This document shows positions 1-19,843 of a stretch of DNA of 41,044 bases, piece by piece. Below the pieces are notes generated by a model. It was not told the origin of the DNA. It made no database searches and worked only from the letters and a program-made list of their open reading frames with translations. The stretch spans positions 1 through 41,044 of IMG/VR virus record IMGVR_UViG_3300048548_000024. One strand, given 5' to 3'. The position numbers and the translations under genes are program-made. This DNA is from a virus. Position 1 is the stretch's first letter, and each line of letters starts with the position of its first letter.

Positions 1-786
1 ATTGGCAAGATGCCTGACTGTGGTCTGCTCAGTGACGACATATACAATGCAGGTAACGGCACAAGTGATGGCATCTACAACATCTTACCAGAGACACAAG
101 AGGGTGAGAATGACCCACTTGACAACTGTATGGATGGCGAGGGTTCACCTGCTGAACAAGAACAGCAAGCGGCAGAGTGGAAAGTCAAGGTTGCTCAAGC
201 GGCACAAGCCGCCAAGATGATGGGCAAGATGAGTGCAGGACTTGAGCGTATGGTTGAGAGTATTCTTCAACCCAAGGTTCACTGGTCTGATGTACTGCAA
301 CGCTTCATTGTCAAGCACAAGACTGATGACCGTTCATTTGCCAGACCTAATCGCAGGTTCATACAGCAAGGTATGTATCTACCTAGTGTGACTGGCGAGG
401 CATTGGGTGAGATGGCGTTTGCTATCGACTGCTCAGGTTCAATCGGACAAGAAGAGATTGACCAGTATGCGGCAGAGATACTCAAGGTTCAACAAGACCA
501 CCACCCTCAGAAACTACACATCATCTACTTCGACTCAGAGGTTTGTCACTATGATGTGTATGAGCAAGGTGAACCACCAGTTATCAAGCCACATGGCGGT
601 GGCGGTACAGCGTTCAGTCCAGTGTTTCAATACATGAGAGATAACGACATCAACCCTGTCGCTTGTGTATTCCTGACAGACCTGTGCTGTAGCGACTTCG
701 GTGACGCACCAGAATACCCTGTGTTGTGGGTATCAACACACGACAACCAAGCACCCTTCGGTGAAATAGTAATGATGGAGATATGA
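1..786 (+). CDS. VWA-domain putative metallopeptidase (DUF2201-like), 5' truncated by window
   Basis: The frame is open to the left edge, so the protein is probably longer than the 258 residues counted from the ATG at 10. The visible part matches the C-terminal half of DUF2201-type proteins: a conserved block with PNRR, then a von Willebrand A-like fold. Its metal site (MIDAS) is visible as DCSGS (DxSxS), the Thr in GGGGTAFSP and the Asp in FLTDLCC, and it ends with the PVLWV...PFGE strand typical of the family. DUF2201 proteins usually carry an N-terminal zinc-peptidase-like domain and work with a MoxR-type AAA+ ATPase; both would lie upstream and are not visible. Residues around 45-60 are Gln/Glu rich. 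It heads the early + strand block and ends one base before the next ATG. The family call is strong; the role in infection is unknown. Confidence 0.8.
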   Translation: MGKMPDCGLLSDDIYNAGNGTSDGIYNILPETQEGENDPLDNCMDGEGSPAEQEQQAAEWKVKVAQAAQAAKMMGKMSAGLERMVESILQPKVHWSDVLQRFIVKHKTDDRSFARPNRRFIQQGMYLPSVTGEALGEMAFAIDCSGSIGQEEIDQYAAEILKVQQDHHPQKLHIIYFDSEVCHYDVYEQGEPPVIKPHGGGGTAFSPVFQYMRDNDINPVACVFLTDLCCSDFGDAPEYPVLWVSTHDNQAPFGEIVMMEI

Positions 787-1475: not shown

Positions 1476-2369
1476 ATGACTTGGCTAAAACCAGAAGATA
1501 GAACCATTCTAAATCACGAACAAGCAAACTCACTCTGGTCGAGGGTGCGTAACCCTGAGAAGGGTAAGCCTATCACAGGTTGGCTTCGTATGTTCAAGGT
1601 AGGCGATGACTTCCTGTTCAAGATACAAGGTTATGGCTCAACGGACTTATGCCGTTTGTCACCTGACAACAGGTTCACGTTTGTTGCACCGCCCGAGGTG
1701 TTTCAATCTCATGCACAGACTCTAGTGTCCTCACTACATCGTTGGCTACCCTTCACCTGTATGCGTCACCGTAAGGGGCTGTATCGTGTAGCCCACAGTA
1801 AGACTGTGATTGCAGAGATGGAGAAGCGGTACAACGCAGACCCTGAGAAAGACGCAACCTCACATATGCACAACTACTCTATGTACAGGCAGTACAACCC
1901 TGTGATGCGGGAGCAACCCTACTTCTTTGAGGGAATTGAGTTCGACATCGTGGACGGTACATGCCTCAACCCTAGACCTGATGTGAAGATGATTGAGAAG
2001 CCAGACGAACGTAAGCAATGGCGTAGAGCGTTGGCCTCATTCAAGAAAGGTATCAAGGCTCGTGTCAGAGTTCATGCTTTCGATGGCATCATCGACAAGA
2101 TGTGGGCAGAGCGACAAGGGCAGAGCCGTTGGGATTGGCGACAGCCACAGTGGGAGTCAAAGCAGTGGATGGATTTACTTGAGACTTCTATTCGTGAGAA
2201 TGAGTTCTCACAGGAGTTGTTGATGGGCTTGGCTCAGACAACTGACCTCGGCTACTACAAAGCTACCAAGCCAGAAGGTAAGGACATACTCAAGTCTCTC
2301 GACAAGGTATGTAATGACCAGAGTATCGAACTGCGTAGACGGTTCGGTGTGTTCAGTAAGGAGGCTTAG
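1476..2369 (+). CDS. Hypothetical early phage protein, 297 aa
   Basis: The ATG at 1476 has a good ribosome binding site (GGGAG, 6 bases upstream), and the gene sits 10 bases after the preceding stop. The product is hydrophilic, rich in Trp, Arg and Lys (for example WRQPQWESKQW near residue 225), with no signal peptide or membrane segment. I do not recognise a family. The N-terminal 90 residues look beta-rich and the C-terminal 100 residues look helical. The 3' end of the gene supplies the AAGGAGG ribosome binding site of the following HslV-like gene, so the two are expressed together. Because the preceding gene resembles Nmad5, a DNA- or nucleotide-related role is possible but unsupported. 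Confidence 0.6.
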   Translation: MTWLKPEDRTILNHEQANSLWSRVRNPEKGKPITGWLRMFKVGDDFLFKIQGYGSTDLCRLSPDNRFTFVAPPEVFQSHAQTLVSSLHRWLPFTCMRHRKGLYRVAHSKTVIAEMEKRYNADPEKDATSHMHNYSMYRQYNPVMREQPYFFEGIEFDIVDGTCLNPRPDVKMIEKPDERKQWRRALASFKKGIKARVRVHAFDGIIDKMWAERQGQSRWDWRQPQWESKQWMDLLETSIRENEFSQELLMGLAQTTDLGYYKATKPEGKDILKSLDKVCNDQSIELRRRFGVFSKEA

Positions 2370-2372
2370 GGT

Positions 2373-2831
2373 ATGACAGTAATAGCATGGGATGGTAAGA
2401 CTTTATGTACTGACCAACAGGCTAACGATGGCTCTATGAAATGGGAGGCAGAGAAGGCTTGGTACATAACCAACAAGGCGACTGGTAAAATCTGCATAGT
2501 CACAGGGGTTGGTACTCTTGGTTACATCATACAACTACGCGACTGGTTCGCTAGCGGTATGGAAACTGCCTTGGATATAACACCAAACATGGCAGAGTTA
2601 ATCGTCATAGACGATGAGGGGTTGTGTGTATTCTCAGGAGAGAAAACATATTCCCCTGTAAGGTTGAAAGCACCGATGGCTTTCGGGCATGGCAGAGAAT
2701 ATGCAATGGGGGCTATGGCTATGGGGGCTAACGCCTCTGATGCTGTCACTATTGCTAATGAGTATTCTTTACACTGTGGTAAAGGTGTGGCATGCTATAC
2801 TATACACCCAGACGAAAAGGGAGATAACTAA
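2373..2831 (+). CDS. Small Ntn-hydrolase / proteasome-beta (HslV)-like protein
   Basis: The product has 152 residues. It begins Met-Thr-Val-Ile-Ala-Trp-Asp-Gly, followed by LCTDQQA, the pattern of proteasome-type N-terminal nucleophile hydrolases. There, Met removal exposes a catalytic Thr, and an Asp and a Lys complete the site. Thr2, Asp14 and a Lys in the EAEKAW segment (Lys28) are the likely counterparts; the gly-rich VTGVGTLGY strand follows as in HslV. The AMGAMAMGANASDAVTIANEY segment near residues 112-132 matches the family's conserved helix (GSGG..A..A). It is shorter than typical HslV (about 175 residues). No HslU-type unfoldase is seen nearby. The start is set by AAGGAGG inside the preceding gene, 3 bases downstream of whose stop this ATG lies. 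Fold confidence is good; peptidase activity is inferred. Confidence 0.72.
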   Translation: MTVIAWDGKTLCTDQQANDGSMKWEAEKAWYITNKATGKICIVTGVGTLGYIIQLRDWFASGMETALDITPNMAELIVIDDEGLCVFSGEKTYSPVRLKAPMAFGHGREYAMGAMAMGANASDAVTIANEYSLHCGKGVACYTIHPDEKGDN

Positions 2832-2832
2832 A

Positions 2833-3285
2833 ATGGGTAGAAGAAAAATGACTAAGACTGATAAAGTGTGGGCTTACCTAATTAAAAACCCCACGGCTAC
2901 TGCGAAAGAGGTAGCTACTCAGGTAGGTTGCACTACTAAACTTGTGTACACTTTGCGTAAGAAGATTGGCACACCTCAAGAAGTCTTTAATGCAGAGGCC
3001 CAACCTAAACAACGCACTCGTGTCAAGTTGTTGTCACAAGCTAGCGCATTGATTGACGGCGACAGGGAGGAAGAACACGGAGACTTTCAAACTAACGCCG
3101 AGATGATTGCGGCTTACTGGAATACCCACCTACAGATAATAGACTTCATCAAGCCCGAGGATATTCCTGTAATGATGACGCTTCTAAAGTTAGCTAGGTC
3201 ACACCAGAAGCCAGAGCGTATTGACAATTATCGTGATGCGGCAGGTTACATTGCCCTTGCAGGTGAATTGGCAGGGGGTAAGTAG
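2833..3285 (+). CDS. HTH plus DUF6378-like protein
   Basis: The open frame extends left to 2689 inside the previous gene, but the ATG at 2833 follows that gene's stop and has GGGAG upstream, giving 150 residues. Residues 7-55 form a helix-turn-helix-like unit (DKVWAYLIKNPTATAKEVA then a short turn and recognition helix with TTKLVYTLRKK). Residues about 65-148 match the phage family I know as DUF6378: an ALIDGDREEEHGDF segment, then AAYWNTHL, then a PVMMTLLKLAR helix and a DNYRDAAGYIALAGEL end. DUF6378 is reminiscent of all-alpha nucleotide pyrophosphatase (MazG-like) helices, but that link is not proven. It directly precedes the DNA polymerase, consistent with a role in DNA metabolism or regulation. 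Confidence 0.68.
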   Translation: MGRRKMTKTDKVWAYLIKNPTATAKEVATQVGCTTKLVYTLRKKIGTPQEVFNAEAQPKQRTRVKLLSQASALIDGDREEEHGDFQTNAEMIAAYWNTHLQIIDFIKPEDIPVMMTLLKLARSHQKPERIDNYRDAAGYIALAGELAGGK

Positions 3286-9464: not shown

Positions 9465-12323
9465 ATGGACACGCTGAGTTTTTTACAGCGGGTTCTACCG
9501 TCTGAAGGATACTATGTAACGACACTGATAAGCCCAGATAACAAAGTACAACAGGGCTTTTTTGATACGGTAGAAGAACTCGCTAAAGCCTGTATAAGGC
9601 TATCATCGTCACAGCCAGACAAGAATGTCTATTTCGCTGTGTCGGCTTTCAATACCAAGGGTAATAGAAAGCAAGATAATGTTCGTGCAACTAAGCTAGT
9701 TGCTGTCGATGTGGATTGCGGAGAGGGCAAACCGTTCCCCACATGGAAGGAAGGACTAACTGCACTAGGTAAGTTTGTCGCTGAGATGCGCTTACCTAAA
9801 CCACTAATCATTCATTCGGGCAATGGCCTACACGCCTATTGGGTTCTTGATGCAGAGTTAGAGCCAGAGGAATGGAAGCCTCTAGCCGAAGCATTGAAGG
9901 AAGCCTGTGTAGCAAAAGGCTTTGAGGTTGACCCTGCTGTACCTGCTGACAGCGCAAGAGTCTTGCGTCCTGTTGGTACTATAAACACCAAGGGTGGTAA
10001 CGAAGTTAAGATGCTTGTAGATGCTGAGCCAGTAAGCGTTCAGACATTGCGGGATTGTCTAAGTTATTACTTCAAGCCCTCAGCTGCAGCCAGTATAGAT
10101 CGCACTCGTGAGAGCACGTTGCTGGATAATCTAGCAGTCAAGCAAGATTTCCCACCTGCTGTCGGCTCTGTAGTAGCAAGTAAGTGTAAGCAGATTGAAT
10201 GGGCTATAGCTAACCAAGGGGATGTAGATGAGCCACTATGGTATGACATCATTGGTGTAGCGGCACATTGTATCGACCCAGAATCTACAGCAAAGGAGTG
10301 GAGCAATCAGCATCCGTCGTATGATGAGAAGACTACCTTACACAAACTTGCTCACTGGAGGCAGTCCACAACAGGGCCAACAACATGTGCGAAGTTTGAA
10401 GCAGACCGCCCTAATGGGTGCAGAGGCTGTAAGTTCAAAGGCAAAATCGGTTCGCCTGCCAGACTTGGGGTGCAGTATCAAGAGGTGGCTGTTCCACAGA
10501 AGGCGTTAGATAGTGTTGCTAATGCTATCCCTATGCCTAAACCATTCAAGCGTACAGTGGATGGCATCAAAGTTACTATAGACGATACCGATATAGATGT
10601 ATGCAAGTTCGACATATACCCAGTTGGGTATGGACTAGACCACTCGCTAGGCTATGAGACTGTGAGGTTTCATTGGAATAGACCACACATGGGGTGGCAA
10701 GAGATTTCGCTAAGACAGGCGTATCTAGCAGAGGGCAGTCGTGAGTTCGCTACAGCGATAGCAGACCAAGGTATTGTCCTATATAACAAAAGGCAAACGG
10801 AGTATTTTCAACTTATGATGCGGTCATATATGGAAGAGCTTAGACAAATCCGTGCCATGACCAACCTCTACTCAACTATGGGATGGAAAGAAAAGAACAC
10901 GGCATTTGTTATAGGCGACACACTAATTAAGCGAGACGCTAATGGTGCAGTCGAAGAAGAAAACATTAATCTATCAGCAGGAGTACAGCGTCAAGGCAAC
11001 GAGTTGTACCCAGTAAAGGGAACGCTAGAATCTTGGGCTACCCTTACATCTATAATGGAGAAGGCTGACCTCAAGGCGCACATGTTTGCGTTAGGCGTAG
11101 GCTTCTCAGCACCACTATATAATTTCACTGGCCTCAAAGGTCTGACTATATCCCTGTATGGTGCAACAGGTGGAGGTAAAACACTGGCGCAGTATTGGGC
11201 GCAGTCTATATATGGCGACCCCGACAAGCTACACTTTGCGGCTAAGTACACACAGAACAGCCTGTTCTCACGACTTGGTACATACGCTAACCTTCCGTTA
11301 ACCATCGACGAAGTTACCATGATGCAAGACAAAGAAGTCGGTGACTTCTGCTATTGGGTATCTCAAGGCAGGGATAAGGCTAGGCTCAACCGTAACGCAG
11401 AAGAGCGTGACTCTAAGACTTGGGCTACACCTGTCATGGTGTCCACTAACAAATCTCTACAGAGTAAACTGATTGCATCAGGACTAGACACAGACGCTCA
11501 GATGGCTCGTATGTTAGAGGTGACAGTACCGCAGAGTGCTATCTTCACAAGGAACTCAGAAGCAGGGCGTAAGATATACGAAGCAATCCACGCTAACTAT
11601 GGTCACGCAGGTAGGCTGTATATAAAGAACCTAGTAGAGATGGGCGAGGACGGTATCAATGCGGCGATAGCAGAGGCTACCAATACATTCCACAGTAAAT
11701 ACAAAGCTAGATTCAGCGGTGAAGAACGGTATTGGGAACAGTCTATCATCTTAGCAGACCTAGGTTTGAAACTGGCAAATGACTGGGGCTTGATAAAGTT
11801 CGACTACCGCCAAGCAACCGAGTGGGTACTGGCACAGATTGGTGCTATCCGTAGGACTGTACAGGAAAACCAAGTGGACTCATTCGATCTTATCGCAGAG
11901 TACATGGCTGATAGTGCAGACGCACAGGTTACTGTAATGCACACCTCAGGTCAGAAACCACAGCCAGATTATAGCCGTATACCAAGGGGCGATGTAAGAG
12001 TTCGCCTTGATGTATTCCGTAAGTCTGCGGCTGATCCGTTTGACAAGGGTACTATGATGGTTGACCGCACTCACTTCCGCAAATGGTTGTCAGTGCGAGG
12101 AGCTGACTACAAGTCATTCAAACAGGAACTTGCTGAGGAGAACGTAGTAGCCACACCCAAGTCAGAGAAAGCATCCCTTGGTAAGGACACGCCAATTAAA
12201 CTGGCGCAGTCTTATGTGATTGGATTTAATCTGACACATCCACGTTTCCAGAGTTTGTTAGAAAGTGCAGATGTAGCGGCAGATGACTTAGCTTACGGTC
12301 AGCTTCAAGTTATCAAAGACTAA
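9465..12323 (+). CDS. PrimPol primase - DUF927 helicase fusion
   Basis: The ATG at 9465 (AAGG upstream) is preferred to a GTG at 9450, giving 952 residues. The N-terminal 210 residues resemble the RepB-like archaeo-eukaryotic primase: VDVDC (Asp82, Asp84), then SGNGLHAYWVL, then DSARVLRPVGTINTK. A Cys-containing middle section (CAKFEADRPNGCRGCKFKG, near residues 305-330) could bind zinc. From about residue 365 the protein matches DUF927 with a P-loop ATPase: GATGGGKT (Lys572), LPLTIDE (Walker B), and a sensor/arginine-finger region with ARMLEV. It should prime and unwind DNA in one polypeptide. It is last in the early block and its TAA overlaps the opposite block's TAG. Confidence 0.88.
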   Translation: MDTLSFLQRVLPSEGYYVTTLISPDNKVQQGFFDTVEELAKACIRLSSSQPDKNVYFAVSAFNTKGNRKQDNVRATKLVAVDVDCGEGKPFPTWKEGLTALGKFVAEMRLPKPLIIHSGNGLHAYWVLDAELEPEEWKPLAEALKEACVAKGFEVDPAVPADSARVLRPVGTINTKGGNEVKMLVDAEPVSVQTLRDCLSYYFKPSAAASIDRTRESTLLDNLAVKQDFPPAVGSVVASKCKQIEWAIANQGDVDEPLWYDIIGVAAHCIDPESTAKEWSNQHPSYDEKTTLHKLAHWRQSTTGPTTCAKFEADRPNGCRGCKFKGKIGSPARLGVQYQEVAVPQKALDSVANAIPMPKPFKRTVDGIKVTIDDTDIDVCKFDIYPVGYGLDHSLGYETVRFHWNRPHMGWQEISLRQAYLAEGSREFATAIADQGIVLYNKRQTEYFQLMMRSYMEELRQIRAMTNLYSTMGWKEKNTAFVIGDTLIKRDANGAVEEENINLSAGVQRQGNELYPVKGTLESWATLTSIMEKADLKAHMFALGVGFSAPLYNFTGLKGLTISLYGATGGGKTLAQYWAQSIYGDPDKLHFAAKYTQNSLFSRLGTYANLPLTIDEVTMMQDKEVGDFCYWVSQGRDKARLNRNAEERDSKTWATPVMVSTNKSLQSKLIASGLDTDAQMARMLEVTVPQSAIFTRNSEAGRKIYEAIHANYGHAGRLYIKNLVEMGEDGINAAIAEATNTFHSKYKARFSGEERYWEQSIILADLGLKLANDWGLIKFDYRQATEWVLAQIGAIRRTVQENQVDSFDLIAEYMADSADAQVTVMHTSGQKPQPDYSRIPRGDVRVRLDVFRKSAADPFDKGTMMVDRTHFRKWLSVRGADYKSFKQELAEENVVATPKSEKASLGKDTPIKLAQSYVIGFNLTHPRFQSLLESADVAADDLAYGQLQVIKD

Positions 12324-15300
12324 AAGCCTTCATCATTTAGTCCGTATATTTCCATAAGTATTTGCAGGTCAGAACGTATATTGGTAGGCGCAGTCTTCAA
12401 GTACCTCTGGCCTGTAGGCATCTTGGCAGACTTAGCAGACCGCTTTGCTCTAGACCTAAAGTCTTTGAACTCAAACGCAGTGTTAGCGTGGATATCATTC
12501 CAGTCCATGACCATCATCTCAATGTCTAGCATACGGTCTAGATCATCCTCAACAGACGCTTTTACATAGGCCGCAGTGTAGTCAGCCCGAAGTGCCTTGA
12601 TATAGTCAGCCTTGTACTTACCCAATCTTACGATGTCGTTCTCTCTTGTGGCTACAGCAGGATAGAAACCTGCCGCCCTAAAGAGTATCTGCCCCCAACT
12701 AGCGGAAGGGTCTATGACTTTGCCTTGCGAGTTTGTCACTACGCCAGAATCATAATAAGTAGATGCGTCTACTATGCCGCGCATGGCGGCTATTGGTGAT
12801 TCGCGGAATGCTTCAGTTAGCGTCAGTGTCTGGTCTCTAAGACCGACTGCACCTGCACCATACTTAGTTAGGTTTCCTGCTGTAACAAACGCACCTTCAA
12901 CACCAGACCAAATAGGCCCGAAGAAGTTCTCAAGCTCTCGACCTGTATCAGCGCCAGCCCTACCCGCACCAGTCAACGGAAGCATATCCCCAAAGCCTAG
13001 TCGGGTTGAGAATGTACCTGCCGCAATCTGGTCTAGCCCGCCTCGCATGATGAACTTTGCAGAGCCTGGGGCTAGGTCTTCAAACAGCGTGATAAGAGAT
13101 TCCTCTACGCCCGCCGATGTGATGCCAAACTTCTGCATGAGTGTGTCAATCAAATCAGCTAGGTCATCTGCGAATGGTAGACCTTTAAGTCCGGACATAA
13201 GCACAAGCATACCGATAAAGTACAGTCTACCTTGAGGACTCAGACCTTTTAGCATCTGAATTGTGATGATAGAGAACTGCTTATAGATAAACAGATACTG
13301 ACCCACGTTGCCACGCGCCATCTCTGGGCGGTTAAACATGCCGTATTCACCCTGCGAAGTATTCACAGCAGTACGAGCAAACGCAGTGGCCTCTGCCCTA
13401 AACTCTGTTAGTAGTTCATTCTTCTGCTCAGTTGTTAGACTGTCGAAGTTAGGTGTGCCAGCAATAGCCCGCTTCATATGCAGACGATAGCCCGCCAAAG
13501 CCGTGGCTCTACGGTTGAGTTGCTCTGTGTATGAGAACATACCCATCCACAGTTTGATTGCGCCTTGTAGCTTGTTGCTATTGATTCCACCCCTTGCTGT
13601 ACCAACTAGAGCGTTAGCTTGTGCCGCTTGTAGAACACCTTCTGATGTGGCGTCTGCTAGGAACAATGCCTCATCCTCAGTTATCTTATGTTTCTTCCGC
13701 AGAGCTTCATTACTCGCTAGTCTATTGACATATACAGCGTCTGCTAGTTTACGATCACCCATGTTACGAGCGGCAATCTGCATTTCCATAGTGGCGTTAC
13801 TGATTCCGAACCCGCCTCCAAACCCTCTAGCCTCGTTGTAAGTGCCGAGGTAAGGAATAGAGTGTGTAGCCATAGAGACAAGGTTGATACCAGCAGTGGC
13901 GATTGAGCCACCAAGCTGAGCAACAACAGTCCACATCTTCAAACGAGAGCCAGTTTCACCTGACAGTAAGTCCTCAGTCGAGTCGTTGATGTTCGCACTG
14001 TCAGCATACCATTGCTGTAGTCCGAGTGCTGTGCCTCTGTAGTCTTCACCTCTACCTAGGTTCTTCATAGCCTTGCCAGACACACGGTTAGTAGCCTGTG
14101 GCATACCATCACCTGCCATATACTGATACATATAGGCATAGCGGTCATAATCATTTTGGGCTTTACGCATCTGCTCTGGTGTTAGGTCAGTGCGCTCTGT
14201 CTGAGCGTACAAGTCTTGCATTTGCTTTGAGTTACCACGCCATAAGCTGTCGTCCAACATGATGTTGTTTAGACGGTGGCGGTAGAAAGCCTGCCCTGCA
14301 ATGTGCCCCTGCGTCTCAAGATATTCTGATGTGCTACGTACAACGTCTTGATCCCAACCTTTAACACCCGCTCTCTGGATGCTCCTACGAGCACGTTGAG
14401 TCTGGGCAGTCAAAGCCTCCACAATACGTTCACGTTCTTCTGGGTTTATGTTTACATCTAAACGAGCAAGTGTATTCGTGAAGTCAGTCAGACTAAACTG
14501 CTGACCTAAGACTGAACCTTTACGGGTTGTCTCGGTCACTGCTCGGAAGGTTACGGCTCGCTCTGCACCTGACTCATCTGTAAGAGTAAACTCGGTGTCG
14601 CCAAACTCTGTATTTAGATTGTCAGCTATCTCGCGGGCATCCTTACGGCTACCAGCTTGGTAGTACGGCATGACTGTGCGCCACACATCATCCAACTTGA
14701 CTACTTCGCCGTTAGCGTCAAACGCCACAACCCTAATCTGCTGGTTGCCACGGCGTGTGAACGGTACATACGATGTCATTATCGTACGCTTAGCATTAAA
14801 CTGTGCGTTCTGTGCCTGTACATCGAGAAGATACAAGTTACCAATCGCAGATGTTACGCGGTTAGCTTGGCTCTTTGAGTAGTTCTTAGCAGACAGTGAG
14901 TCCAATCCATCAATAATATCTTGGAACTCTGGGCCTTGGAACTTAGCAGCGTCCTCTCTACCCTGCTTAAAGTCCTGCACCTTACCTTTCTGAAACAGTG
15001 CGCGGTTAAATTCTCTTAGGAACGTACGGGCATTGGTTACTGACTCGCTCTTGTATTGGAAGCTACCGCCTTCCTGTCTCGCACCTTCTTGATACAGACG
15101 AACGTACTGCTCCATGACCTTACGCATGACCATAGAGTCTATATCTGACATACCGTAAGATTTTTTGAATTGGTTAATAGTAGCGTCACGTTGGGCTATA
15201 GCCCCTTCGATAGTAGAGCGAACCACATCAAGAGCAGACTGGTCTACTGCTGTTCTTTGTTCAGTGTAGATTTTCCATACGCGGTCTGTGATTGTGAAGT

Positions 15301-18300
15301 CAGGTGTCCACGTATCTTCTGTAAATACTTTTTGTTCTTGGTCGCCAAGTGTTACGCGTAATCCATTTTGGAAGTCCTCGCGTGTTAGCTTTCCTGCTTC
15401 TTGTGCGGCTGTGAAGTTAACGCTGTTGATGCCTATGGTTCCGTTGTCGTCAATAACAAGATCACCCACATCACGGATCTCTCCGTCAGTAACAGTATTC
15501 TGCTTGTGCAATGCGCCATATGCTAGCAGCTGACCTGCTTGTAGTAGCTCAGCTTCTGTTGGCCCACCTTCTTTTCCGCCGCCGTCTGCTGTGTACGAGA
15601 ACGCAGAGTGGGAGAACGCAGTCATACCTTCGTAGTTAGACAGGAAGCGTCTTGCTCTACTTGAACGAGATTGGAATATATTAAACACCTGCTGGAGGCC
15701 ATCGCTTCTGGTAGCCATGTTGTCCAGAGACTGTACGTTTTCAGCTAGCTTACCAAGGAACACACCGACATCACGGATGTTCTCTATATCCTTTGCGTTC
15801 TTAAGCATGTTCTTCAGAGCGTTCATGCCGCCGTACTGACCGCCACGTTGTACGTAAGCGTGCGATGCCATAGCTCGTGAGGCTGCGTCTGCAGTATCTT
15901 CTACAAGTGAGTAGCGTCCCAACGTGTTGTCAGACTGTAAGCTCTTAAGGTTATTCCCTAGCTCCTGCATGCTTACTAGACCGCTACCACCCTGCAACAA
16001 GTTTCTGCGTGATTGTCTAATCATGTACCTGGCCAGGTCATCTTCAAAGGTTGCACCCATAGCTTCTAGGGCATCCTTGATTGCGTACCACATTCGTTTG
16101 ATAAGGCTAGAATCTAGGTCGGCTGCTTTGTCAGCCATTGTTTCTTCGATGGCTTCTAGCTTGTTCATACCCATCTCAACGCGGCGGTCAACCATTGCGC
16201 GGACGGAAGAATCACCTCGGTAGATTTCTTCTAGGACTGTATTAAGTTGTGGTTCAGCCATGAAAGCACGGAAGCCAAAGTGGCCCATAGTCTCGTGCGC
16301 TATAACAAACTGTGCCTGCTGTTCTGTTTTAATGTTGTCACTAAACAAAATGATTTCATCGCCCACAGAGAATCCTGCTGCAGGGGTAAACTCAAAGTCA
16401 CCATCAGGGCGTGAGTTATTTGCACGCTCAAACAGTTCTGGGTTAGCAGCTTTAAGCTCTGCTTGATCTTTATAGACAAATACCTTTGGCTTAATCTTTA
16501 GACTAGAGATAGCTTTCTTAGCGATAGCCTGCACGCGCAACTTTGGAAGAGGGTCAGTGATAGGCTGGCTGTTGTCCGCTCTGTAGAAGCTACCTCGTTT
16601 ATCGTCTGCTGCCTTGGCTGCGTCAGCCATAGTAGAGGAGTCTTCAGACCTAGACTGTGACACGTTAGCTGCTGGTGCTGGGTTAGCCATAGCTTTATAT
16701 GGAGCACCTGTAATTGTTATGCCGTTCTTTGGGTCAGCAATTTTATCTACTAGGCCACGGCGTGTAGCGTACTCAAACCACGGTTGTGTGGAAGAACGCG
16801 TTTCTGTTTCGTATGTGGCGAACTTAACAAAGGTCTCGTCTAGTATTTTCTTTTGGCCTTCGGAGAAAGTCTCAGGGGCTGTAAATGTTTTATCCACAAA
16901 AGCTTTAGCCGCTGTCCTTGCGGCTCTGTAGTCCGTGGCCTCTGCGTTTGTACCACTAGGAGCGGCAGACCAATATGCGTAATCCAGTAGAGACACAGCA
17001 AGCCCGCGTAGTTCACCGGAGTCTTGCTCTGATTCAAACTCAGATACCAACTCTTGTACAAGTGCTGCTTCGCTGTCTGGGTCTACGACAGGTTGCCTTT
17101 GTACGCTATCTTCCTGTACACTTTGTTCGGCCCCAGATCCCCGAACGGCTGCTTCTGTTTCCGCAGGGCTGCTTGCTGCCTTGCGATTCTCCGCTTCTCT
17201 GAGACGCTCTTGAGAGCGATTTGTTGCGGCAGCTGCGCGTTCTCTGGCGTTGCTGACTGGAACTTCTTCGCTACTTTCGGTAGGTTGGCTTCCATCCACT
17301 CTTTCTGGGCTTTGCTCCTGTACATTCTGCTGCTCCTGTACTTGCTGCTGGAGCTTATTAATCTCTTGTTGCTCCTGCACCTGCTGTTGAAGCCTGTTGA
17401 TCTCTTGCTGTTGCGCAACGACGGTCTCTTCAGCAGGGGTTGTCTGAATAAGTTCTGGTGTGGCTGGCACTGTAGTACCGGCACCCTTGAGGGCAGCAAC
17501 TGACGGCTCGCCACGTTGTGTAAATAGAATACCTTGCCCTGCTGCACGCGCTTCCGCTGGGGTCATTGGGCTTGCTGCTTCTTCAGCTGCCTTCTGAGCC
17601 TCACGCTCCTGCTTGCGGAGTAGACGATTCTGTTTGGTGATTTCTTTTTGTTCCGCCTTAGTTATCTTTGGCAGCTTAACTTGGCCACGGAACAAGTCTA
17701 ACTGGCGAGGCGGAGTAACTGGAACTGGTACGGTAGGGAGACCCGCAACCGGAGCAGGCGGTGGAGAAACTTCCGCCTGCTGCCTGCCTAATTGCTCCGC
17801 CTCATAAGCCGCGATTTCGTTCTGCGACTGCTGTAAGGCAAGCGCGTTCTCGACTTCGCGGTTATTCTGTTCAATCCGTGCGTCTTCCATTGCTCGCATC
17901 TCAGCCTCTTGCTGGGCTTGCTGTGCTTGCTGTTGTGCTTGCTGTTCTTGTTCTTGCTGGCGTGCAACTGCTTCTTGCATACGCTGCTGTAATAGGTTTG
18001 GTTGTGCCTGCGGCTGCTGTGTTGCAGCTTGTTGAATAGCCTCACTTACGTTCTCTACGGGAACTGGAGGTGCTGGCGGCACTGGGGGTGTAGGTGGGGT
18101 ATATGCAGGCCCATCAAGAGCAAACAAATCACCTTGGTCTGGTTGCACTCCGCCCGTACGATCAGACAGGGGCTGTCCTGCCTCCATAGCTCTGTCTAAG
18201 CGGTTAGCTTCAGCTATCTCACGCTGCCTAATTTCGTTTTGTACTGCTTGTTCTTGTTCTGCAGGGTTTACTGGTGTAGGGGGCTGGTTAGCAACACCCG

Positions 18301-19843
18301 CTACCTCTTGCCTAATAGCCTCGTCTTGTTGGGCTTGACCAAGGTCAGTAATAACTTCCTGTCTTAGGGCTTCATCCTGTGCCCGCAATGCCGCAATATT
18401 TGGGTCAAGCTCAGGCGCAGTACCAAGTCCAGTGCCTTCTTCAAATAGCTCCTGTTGTACTGGGCCTTCACCCTGCTGTGTTCCTTGCTCCTGCTCAGTA
18501 GGCGCACCCTGTAGGATGTCAGCTTCTTTATTAGACTTAAGGTTAGCGATACCACCGATAGGCGCACCAATAGCAAAGCCTGCGGCAAATGAATTGATTA
18601 GGCGTGATAGAGTTTCATCTGATTCGTACTCACGACCAGTGTAGGCGCTCGTAGCACCCATAATAATAGATTCTTGGGTTGCTTCAGTGGCCCCCTCTAG
18701 TGTGCCGCCCACACCAGCACCTGTTGCACCGCGACGTAAGCGGCTACCTTTAGAGCCTCTGGCTATGTTGCCAAATATCTTAGCACCTACGATAAACTCA
18801 GGGATTGTATCTAGTAGTGCATACGGAACAGCTGCGCTAAGCGCAGTCATCTTGGCTCCAAAGTCGCTAGGGTCTACACCGCTTTCGAGAAGCTCTGAGT
18901 AAACATCTGATGAAGCGATGCCAAAGTTGTTTGCGTAACCTAACGTAACTGCTCCCGCAATGCCTGATGCACGCTTAAGAACTTTACCTTGGTCAGTCTT
19001 CATAAAGGCTTTAGCTGCTGCTTTACCTTTAACTTTTTCTTTAGCGTAGGCTTCAGCTGCTTCCTTGACAGCTTGCTTAAATGCTGACTTACCTGTAATA
19101 CCAGCAATAGTACCGCCGACTGAGCCTAATCCTGGCCCTGCTGTGGCGGAACCTGCAACGAAACCGATAGCACCTGCAGCGATAGTCTCAAGAAGCATCG
19201 GGCCTTGTGCGCCAAGGACACCAACAAACCAGTCAACTGGGCCGATGTCTGCGTCACCCATACCAATATCGGTAAACTCTGTGTAGAATGGTGAGTTCTT
19301 GCGTATGTCTTCTTCCGCACGCTCCATGACCCCAAGGCCATACTCTTCTGCGCCAACAAGTACAGAGCCAGCGCCAAATAGGGAGCGTAGCTGTGCCATA
19401 CCAGTGTCAAAGTTCTCAGCGAATCTGCGGGAAAGCGTAGGGTCTTTAATAGATTTGATATACTTGCCGTATTCCTGCGGTGTAACTTGCTGCCAGCTAC
19501 CAGTAGGGGGAGCTTGGCGTGGGCCATCTAGGAATTGCTCAGACTTAAGAGCATTGTCAGCGTCGTCTAAGTCAAACAGCGAGCCATTCACAAACATCTT
19601 GTTCTGCTGTGGGTCAAACAGAACATTAGGGCCAGTAGGAGCAGGGCGTTTTACCTCAGGCATAGAGAACTGAGACATACCTTTAGCGTACTCAGCATCA
19701 ATCTCTCTGCCGATAGCTTCTTTTTGACCTAGAAGATTACCCATCCCTATATTAGGAGCAGGATCATATGGATTGCCTAGCGGCTCTATGTCCATAGCTG
19801 CAAGGGTAGGGCTACCAAATGCTTTAAGTCCCGCCTTAGCCAT
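12320..19843 (-). CDS. Giant polyvalent internal virion protein (PLxRFG-type) with zincin-like motif
   Basis: The product has 2507 residues, with GAGG before the ATG, and is the last gene of the late block. It contains hydrophobic, glycine-zipper-like segments (about 203-250, 292-312, 330-360 and 410-440). A very Gln/Glu-rich coiled-coil and Pro-rich section follows (about 445-900, with a tandem EINRLQQQVQEQQ-type unit near 807-842). An HETMGH motif (His1183, Glu1184, His1188) in a FVIAHETMGHFGFRAF context looks like the zincin-like domain of polyvalent phage proteins. More hydrophobic stretches lie near 1965-1998 and 2203-2222, with a helical C-terminal domain. Such proteins are thought to be packaged in the capsid and ejected with the DNA. 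No RNA polymerase motifs were seen. The class is fairly sure; protease activity is inferred. Confidence 0.82.
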   Translation of the reverse strand: MAKAGLKAFGSPTLAAMDIEPLGNPYDPAPNIGMGNLLGQKEAIGREIDAEYAKGMSQFSMPEVKRPAPTGPNVLFDPQQNKMFVNGSLFDLDDADNALKSEQFLDGPRQAPPTGSWQQVTPQEYGKYIKSIKDPTLSRRFAENFDTGMAQLRSLFGAGSVLVGAEEYGLGVMERAEEDIRKNSPFYTEFTDIGMGDADIGPVDWFVGVLGAQGPMLLETIAAGAIGFVAGSATAGPGLGSVGGTIAGITGKSAFKQAVKEAAEAYAKEKVKGKAAAKAFMKTDQGKVLKRASGIAGAVTLGYANNFGIASSDVYSELLESGVDPSDFGAKMTALSAAVPYALLDTIPEFIVGAKIFGNIARGSKGSRLRRGATGAGVGGTLEGATEATQESIIMGATSAYTGREYESDETLSRLINSFAAGFAIGAPIGGIANLKSNKEADILQGAPTEQEQGTQQGEGPVQQELFEEGTGLGTAPELDPNIAALRAQDEALRQEVITDLGQAQQDEAIRQEVAGVANQPPTPVNPAEQEQAVQNEIRQREIAEANRLDRAMEAGQPLSDRTGGVQPDQGDLFALDGPAYTPPTPPVPPAPPVPVENVSEAIQQAATQQPQAQPNLLQQRMQEAVARQQEQEQQAQQQAQQAQQEAEMRAMEDARIEQNNREVENALALQQSQNEIAAYEAEQLGRQQAEVSPPPAPVAGLPTVPVPVTPPRQLDLFRGQVKLPKITKAEQKEITKQNRLLRKQEREAQKAAEEAASPMTPAEARAAGQGILFTQRGEPSVAALKGAGTTVPATPELIQTTPAEETVVAQQQEINRLQQQVQEQQEINKLQQQVQEQQNVQEQSPERVDGSQPTESSEEVPVSNARERAAAATNRSQERLREAENRKAASSPAETEAAVRGSGAEQSVQEDSVQRQPVVDPDSEAALVQELVSEFESEQDSGELRGLAVSLLDYAYWSAAPSGTNAEATDYRAARTAAKAFVDKTFTAPETFSEGQKKILDETFVKFATYETETRSSTQPWFEYATRRGLVDKIADPKNGITITGAPYKAMANPAPAANVSQSRSEDSSTMADAAKAADDKRGSFYRADNSQPITDPLPKLRVQAIAKKAISSLKIKPKVFVYKDQAELKAANPELFERANNSRPDGDFEFTPAAGFSVGDEIILFSDNIKTEQQAQFVIAHETMGHFGFRAFMAEPQLNTVLEEIYRGDSSVRAMVDRRVEMGMNKLEAIEETMADKAADLDSSLIKRMWYAIKDALEAMGATFEDDLARYMIRQSRRNLLQGGSGLVSMQELGNNLKSLQSDNTLGRYSLVEDTADAASRAMASHAYVQRGGQYGGMNALKNMLKNAKDIENIRDVGVFLGKLAENVQSLDNMATRSDGLQQVFNIFQSRSSRARRFLSNYEGMTAFSHSAFSYTADGGGKEGGPTEAELLQAGQLLAYGALHKQNTVTDGEIRDVGDLVIDDNGTIGINSVNFTAAQEAGKLTREDFQNGLRVTLGDQEQKVFTEDTWTPDFTITDRVWKIYTEQRTAVDQSALDVVRSTIEGAIAQRDATINQFKKSYGMSDIDSMVMRKVMEQYVRLYQEGARQEGGSFQYKSESVTNARTFLREFNRALFQKGKVQDFKQGREDAAKFQGPEFQDIIDGLDSLSAKNYSKSQANRVTSAIGNLYLLDVQAQNAQFNAKRTIMTSYVPFTRRGNQQIRVVAFDANGEVVKLDDVWRTVMPYYQAGSRKDAREIADNLNTEFGDTEFTLTDESGAERAVTFRAVTETTRKGSVLGQQFSLTDFTNTLARLDVNINPEERERIVEALTAQTQRARRSIQRAGVKGWDQDVVRSTSEYLETQGHIAGQAFYRHRLNNIMLDDSLWRGNSKQMQDLYAQTERTDLTPEQMRKAQNDYDRYAYMYQYMAGDGMPQATNRVSGKAMKNLGRGEDYRGTALGLQQWYADSANINDSTEDLLSGETGSRLKMWTVVAQLGGSIATAGINLVSMATHSIPYLGTYNEARGFGGGFGISNATMEMQIAARNMGDRKLADAVYVNRLASNEALRKKHKITEDEALFLADATSEGVLQAAQANALVGTARGGINSNKLQGAIKLWMGMFSYTEQLNRRATALAGYRLHMKRAIAGTPNFDSLTTEQKNELLTEFRAEATAFARTAVNTSQGEYGMFNRPEMARGNVGQYLFIYKQFSIITIQMLKGLSPQGRLYFIGMLVLMSGLKGLPFADDLADLIDTLMQKFGITSAGVEESLITLFEDLAPGSAKFIMRGGLDQIAAGTFSTRLGFGDMLPLTGAGRAGADTGRELENFFGPIWSGVEGAFVTAGNLTKYGAGAVGLRDQTLTLTEAFRESPIAAMRGIVDASTYYDSGVVTNSQGKVIDPSASWGQILFRAAGFYPAVATRENDIVRLGKYKADYIKALRADYTAAYVKASVEDDLDRMLDIEMMVMDWNDIHANTAFEFKDFRSRAKRSAKSAKMPTGQRYLKTAPTNIRSDLQILMEIYGLNDEGF

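Follow-up and report, generated by a model that had tools for sequence, protein, structure and literature searches.

The 41,044-nucleotide stretch of viral DNA analysed here (IMG/VR record IMGVR_UViG_3300048548_000024, positions 1 to 41,044; hereafter the window) carries a small gene whose product resembles the N-terminal-threonine hydrolases of the proteasome and of HslV, which raises the question of what kind of enzyme it encodes and whether it works with any of the genes beside it. The gene is called PPH below, after the family in which we place it, and the features of its locus are collected in Table 1.

Table 1. Features of the PPH locus, with positions counted in the window
Feature	Position	Strand	Basis
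DUF2201 metallopeptidase-like/VWA protein, C-terminal part	10..786	+	PF09967 (3.7e-24), PF13203 (8.2e-19), MIDAS DCSGS
Conserved 297-aa protein, directly upstream of PPH	1476..2369	+	no family match
Shine-Dalgarno-like taaggagg of the PPH gene	2357..2364	+	sequence
In-frame TAG, the upstream gene's stop, blocking N-terminal extension of PPH	2367..2369	+	sequence
PPH gene, predicted 152-aa proteasome/HslV-like N-terminal-Thr hydrolase	2373..2831	+	phrog_1040, profile matches, AlphaFold2, HslV overlay
Thr2 codon, predicted N-terminal nucleophile (Thr1 once Met is gone)	2376..2378	+	Thr/Ser in 51/51; model residue 2 on HslV residue 1
Asp14 codon, counterpart of HslV/proteasome Asp17	2412..2414	+	invariant; aligned to HslV D17
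Lys28 codon, counterpart of HslV/proteasome Lys33	2454..2456	+	invariant; aligned to HslV K33
HTH + DUF6378 protein, directly downstream of PPH	2842..3285	+	PF19905 (2e-24)

Start site and conservation of the PPH gene

The source record encodes a major head protein and an internal virion protein, which identifies it as a tailed phage. The PPH reading frame opens with ATG and its 152 residues include Thr2, Asp14 and Lys28, the layout that a first-pass annotation of the DNA had read as proteasome-beta-like. Immediately 5' of the start the DNA reads taaggagg-cttag-ggt-ATG, with a TAG two codons before the ATG, and because this stop is in frame and no start codon lies between it and the ATG, Met-Thr is the sole possible N-terminus of the protein and there is no propeptide. 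Host methionine aminopeptidase normally exposes threonine when it is the second residue.

IMG/VR holds at least 80 relatives of PPH. Of 51 distinct intact relatives, 41 have Thr at residue 2 and the other 10 have Ser, and Asp14 and Lys28 show no variation across 32 aligned relatives with identities down to 22%; the second residue is varied, unlike in PPH, in the neighbouring gene families of the same loci. Pairwise dN/dS had a median of 0.23 (77 pairs with dS under 2), indicating purifying selection, and together with the conservation of Thr/Ser2, Asp14 and Lys28 this shows that the gene is maintained for its protein and for its catalytic positions. A further motif, GxG..YAxGAxAMGA, is conserved apart from a single copy (L078:9929-10387 and L114:14941-15399, one contig), in which the internal block bearing it is missing and the frame is open. 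Another copy, at L167:7960-8413, is split between two frames, apparently by a frameshift. A genome scan for host copies with PPH returned five weak bacterial loci at 27-32% identity.

Family placement and predicted fold

Over its full length the PPH protein matched PHROG 1040 ("peptidase HslV family"; E = 2.6e-25). The PHROG 1040 and HslV models match the same nine control genomes, and the former, at 277 positions, is longer than PPH, which suggests that it mixes several phage proteasome-like groups. In single-sequence scans the window protein alone had no Pfam or NCBIfam match, phmmer against the PDB gave nothing convincing, and PADLOC left it unmatched; the Pfam proteasome family was matched by 3 of 14 relatives. 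Since single-sequence searches were weak, a profile of the relatives was needed for a match in the PDB, and the 32-relative profile retrieved BPH (Beta-proteobacteria proteasome homolog, 5ovs/5ovt/5ovu; 1.6e-7), HslV (6.3e-7) and proteasome beta-8 (2.8e-6), with the conserved Asp aligned on HslV Asp17 and the conserved Lys on HslV Lys33.

An AlphaFold2 model built on the relatives' alignment was confident (pLDDT 90.9, pTM 0.85), and its best Foldseek matches were BPH, the archaeal 20S proteasome and HslV (E = 2e-8 to 2e-7). In the monomer comparison with HslV that the first-pass annotation had proposed, VIA-align placed model residues 2..147 on residues 1..174 of the E. coli HslV chain 4g4e (Z 16.4, rmsd 2.9, 139 aligned), so that the phage threonine overlies HslV Thr1; the counterparts of Asp17 and Lys33 come from the profile alignment. 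Helices H1 (49-60), H3 (108-116) and H4 (121-131) are present in the model and H2 is absent, the segment between 49-60 and the strand at 74-80 being free of helix, so that the model has a single helix in the region where HslV has two.

The proteasome-beta-like reading is thus borne out by the family profile, the PDB profile match, the fold and the invariant catalytic residues, and the label "HslV-like" holds for the fold but not for HslV proper. PPH shares with HslV the fold over 139 residues, a threonine straight after the methionine and the correspondences D14=D17, K28=K33 and G45=G45, but it is about 20 residues shorter, lacks H2, has no phage HslU and falls under the equivalog cut-off: TIGR03692 (157.75 bits) had no match to the PPH protein or anywhere in the window, and two of the relatives score 15-20 bits, far below the threshold. 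Because the equivalog model failed and H2 is missing, HslV is too narrow a name, and both features fit PPH. BPH, the best profile and Foldseek match, likewise functions without a known unfoldase, although PPH is shorter and has neither H2 nor the longer pore loop.

The PPH family was described by Fuchs, Alva and Lupas in 2021 (PMC8665760) as a phage and host proteasome homolog of about 140 residues without H2 or propeptide. The absence of H2, the size and the phage origin match that description, and the window gene is therefore a new member of this already described family. It shares with the published PPH the length of about 140-150 residues, occurrence in tailed phages, the beta core, the catalytic Thr/Ser-Asp-Lys, H1 without H2, retained H3/H4, and the lack of a propeptide and of an identified AAA+ partner. 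Among the papers searched, none published later reports functional work on PPH by name. We consider it likely that the gene encodes, in a marine tailed-phage lineage, a PPH-family proteasome homolog acting as an orphan, probably ring-forming N-terminal-Thr amidohydrolase or peptidase.

Peptidase activity is not certain, because connectase, a member of the published family with a proteasome-like fold, is a monomeric ligase, and the authors of the family expected new quaternary structures among the new homologs (PMC8665760). PPH could accordingly be a substrate-specific amidohydrolase or a connectase-like protein ligase rather than a compartment protease, in line with its small size and its lack of a detectable unfoldase and of a propeptide. 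We hold this to be unlikely, though worth keeping in mind, as the model is devoid of the helical insertion between S3 and S4 that gives connectase its specificity, and the closest folds are those of the ring proteases BPH and HslV.

Neighbouring genes and the search for an unfoldase

Models of HslU, AAA_2 and HslV found no match within the window, so the earlier remark that no HslU lies nearby was correct. Across 24 PPH phage records no HslU scored above the cut-off (one 12.5-bit fragment was seen), and no ClpP was found in 22 PPH records. The VWA/metallopeptidase gene is the third upstream of PPH, as had been noted; it is truncated by the window start and its metalloprotease half falls outside, and the HECMH metalloprotease-like motif is intact in all 62 full-length DUF2201-VWA relatives. 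PHROG 1314 labels this protein "HNH endonuclease", a name that looks wrong. PPH had also been placed between nucleotide-metabolism genes, which is right for the downstream side (HTH/DUF6378 and PolA) but does not extend to the upstream neighbour, a protein that matches no family. That 297-aa protein is conserved in the lineage whether PPH is present or not; folded as a possible partner of PPH (AlphaFold2 pLDDT 87.3, pTM 0.71), it had no fold match in the PDB (best Foldseek E 0.58, best VIA-align Z 3.1). PHROG 474 and 1167 call the HTH/DUF6378 protein "phosphofructokinase", probably a propagated misannotation. Elsewhere in the window, positions 12320-19843 on the minus strand encode a 2507-aa protein matched, over its C-terminal 500 residues, by PHROGs of unknown function only.

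Relatives whose sequence reaches further upstream show the order MoxR-like AAA+ (phrog_1297) / 283 aa / DUF2201-VWA / Nmad5-like / 297 aa / PPH / HTH-DUF6378 / PolA, and from the AAA+ to PPH it is kept in all PPH loci of the lineage with enough upstream sequence. Several GenBank entries name the AAA+ homologs MoxR-like ATPase; the protein had no phmmer match in the PDB. Because this gene order resembled the missing unfoldase, we tested the pairing of PPH with the AAA+. The lineage's AAA+ was present, at 227-252 bits, in 10/10 of the lineage's records among 26 PPH records tested, and nothing exceeded 28 bits in the 16 distant ones. Conversely, among 38 loci anchored on the AAA+ and with 7 kb or more of sequence downstream, VWA was present in 38/38 and PPH was absent from 12. 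A further 461 phage records contain homologs of the AAA+, and many of these are N4-like; for PPH the corresponding number is 3. In a 45-protein AAA+ tree, 2 changes were enough to account for the presence of PPH, which together with the co-occurrence counts indicates co-inheritance in one clade rather than obligate pairing. Membership of PPH in the MoxR-AAA+/VWA module is not obligatory: the module occurs without PPH and PPH without it, so the suggested joint turnover system with the VWA/metallopeptidase is not supported. In the PPH-less clade (L137-L149, L153, L154) other small genes, including Cys-rich zinc-ribbon-like and HTH-like ones, lie between the 297-aa gene and PolA.

These counts bear on the idea that PPH supplies the peptidase to an ATP-dependent machine, with the MoxR-type AAA+ about 5 kb upstream as its unfoldase and the VWA protein as adaptor. 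The constant gene order and the strong AAA+ matches in all ten lineage records speak for it, but the 12 AAA+/VWA loci lacking PPH, the 16 distant PPH records lacking a comparable AAA+, the far wider distribution of the AAA+ and the missing H2 on the ATPase-facing side make it improbable; moreover, MoxR proteins usually act as chaperones together with VWA proteins (PMC9976466). A recruitment confined to the marine lineage, in which PPH would have become the proteolytic ring of a phage MoxR-AAA+/VWA machine, is quite improbable; if true, it would make PPH with MoxR-AAA+/VWA the first ATP-dependent proteasome of a virus to come with an unfoldase of its own.

Predicted mechanism and meaning

For the orphan hydrolase that we favour, host methionine aminopeptidase would strip Met1 and free the threonine as N-terminal nucleophile, with D14 and K28, which become Asp13 and Lys27 once Met1 is gone, predicted to complete the proteasome triad and Gly45 expected at the position of the HslV oxyanion-hole glycine. 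By analogy with HslV and BPH, the active site would probably be completed when identical subunits assemble into a ring by way of the H3/H4 face, which PPH retains. Without H2 the docking face for HslU would be reduced, and because this ATPase-facing helix is missing and no HslU is encoded, PPH is most likely independent of a dedicated phage unfoldase. As for target and timing, PPH would likely act during infection, cutting peptides, unfolded segments, proteins that are small or unfolded, or a single specific protein produced at that stage. That PPH is instead a proteasome fold that has lost or is losing its catalysis and is retained for binding only, as the isolated degenerate copies (one split by a frameshift, one lacking the internal block) might suggest, is highly improbable, since all intact relatives retain Thr/Ser2, Asp14 and Lys28 and dN/dS is near 0.2.

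The 2021 description did not identify an AAA+ partner for the homologs it introduced and reported no suggestive gene context for PPH (PMC8665760), whereas here the gene occupies, in one phage lineage, a fixed operon position 3' of the MoxR-AAA+/VWA pair, a linkage not common to the distant PPH phages. The comparison also disposes of an attractive false lead, the linkage to the VWA/metallopeptidase being no evidence of a joint protease. Collectively, the stable position in one marine lineage, the intact catalytic residues and the purifying selection make PPH look like a working enzyme of infection rather than a stray gene.
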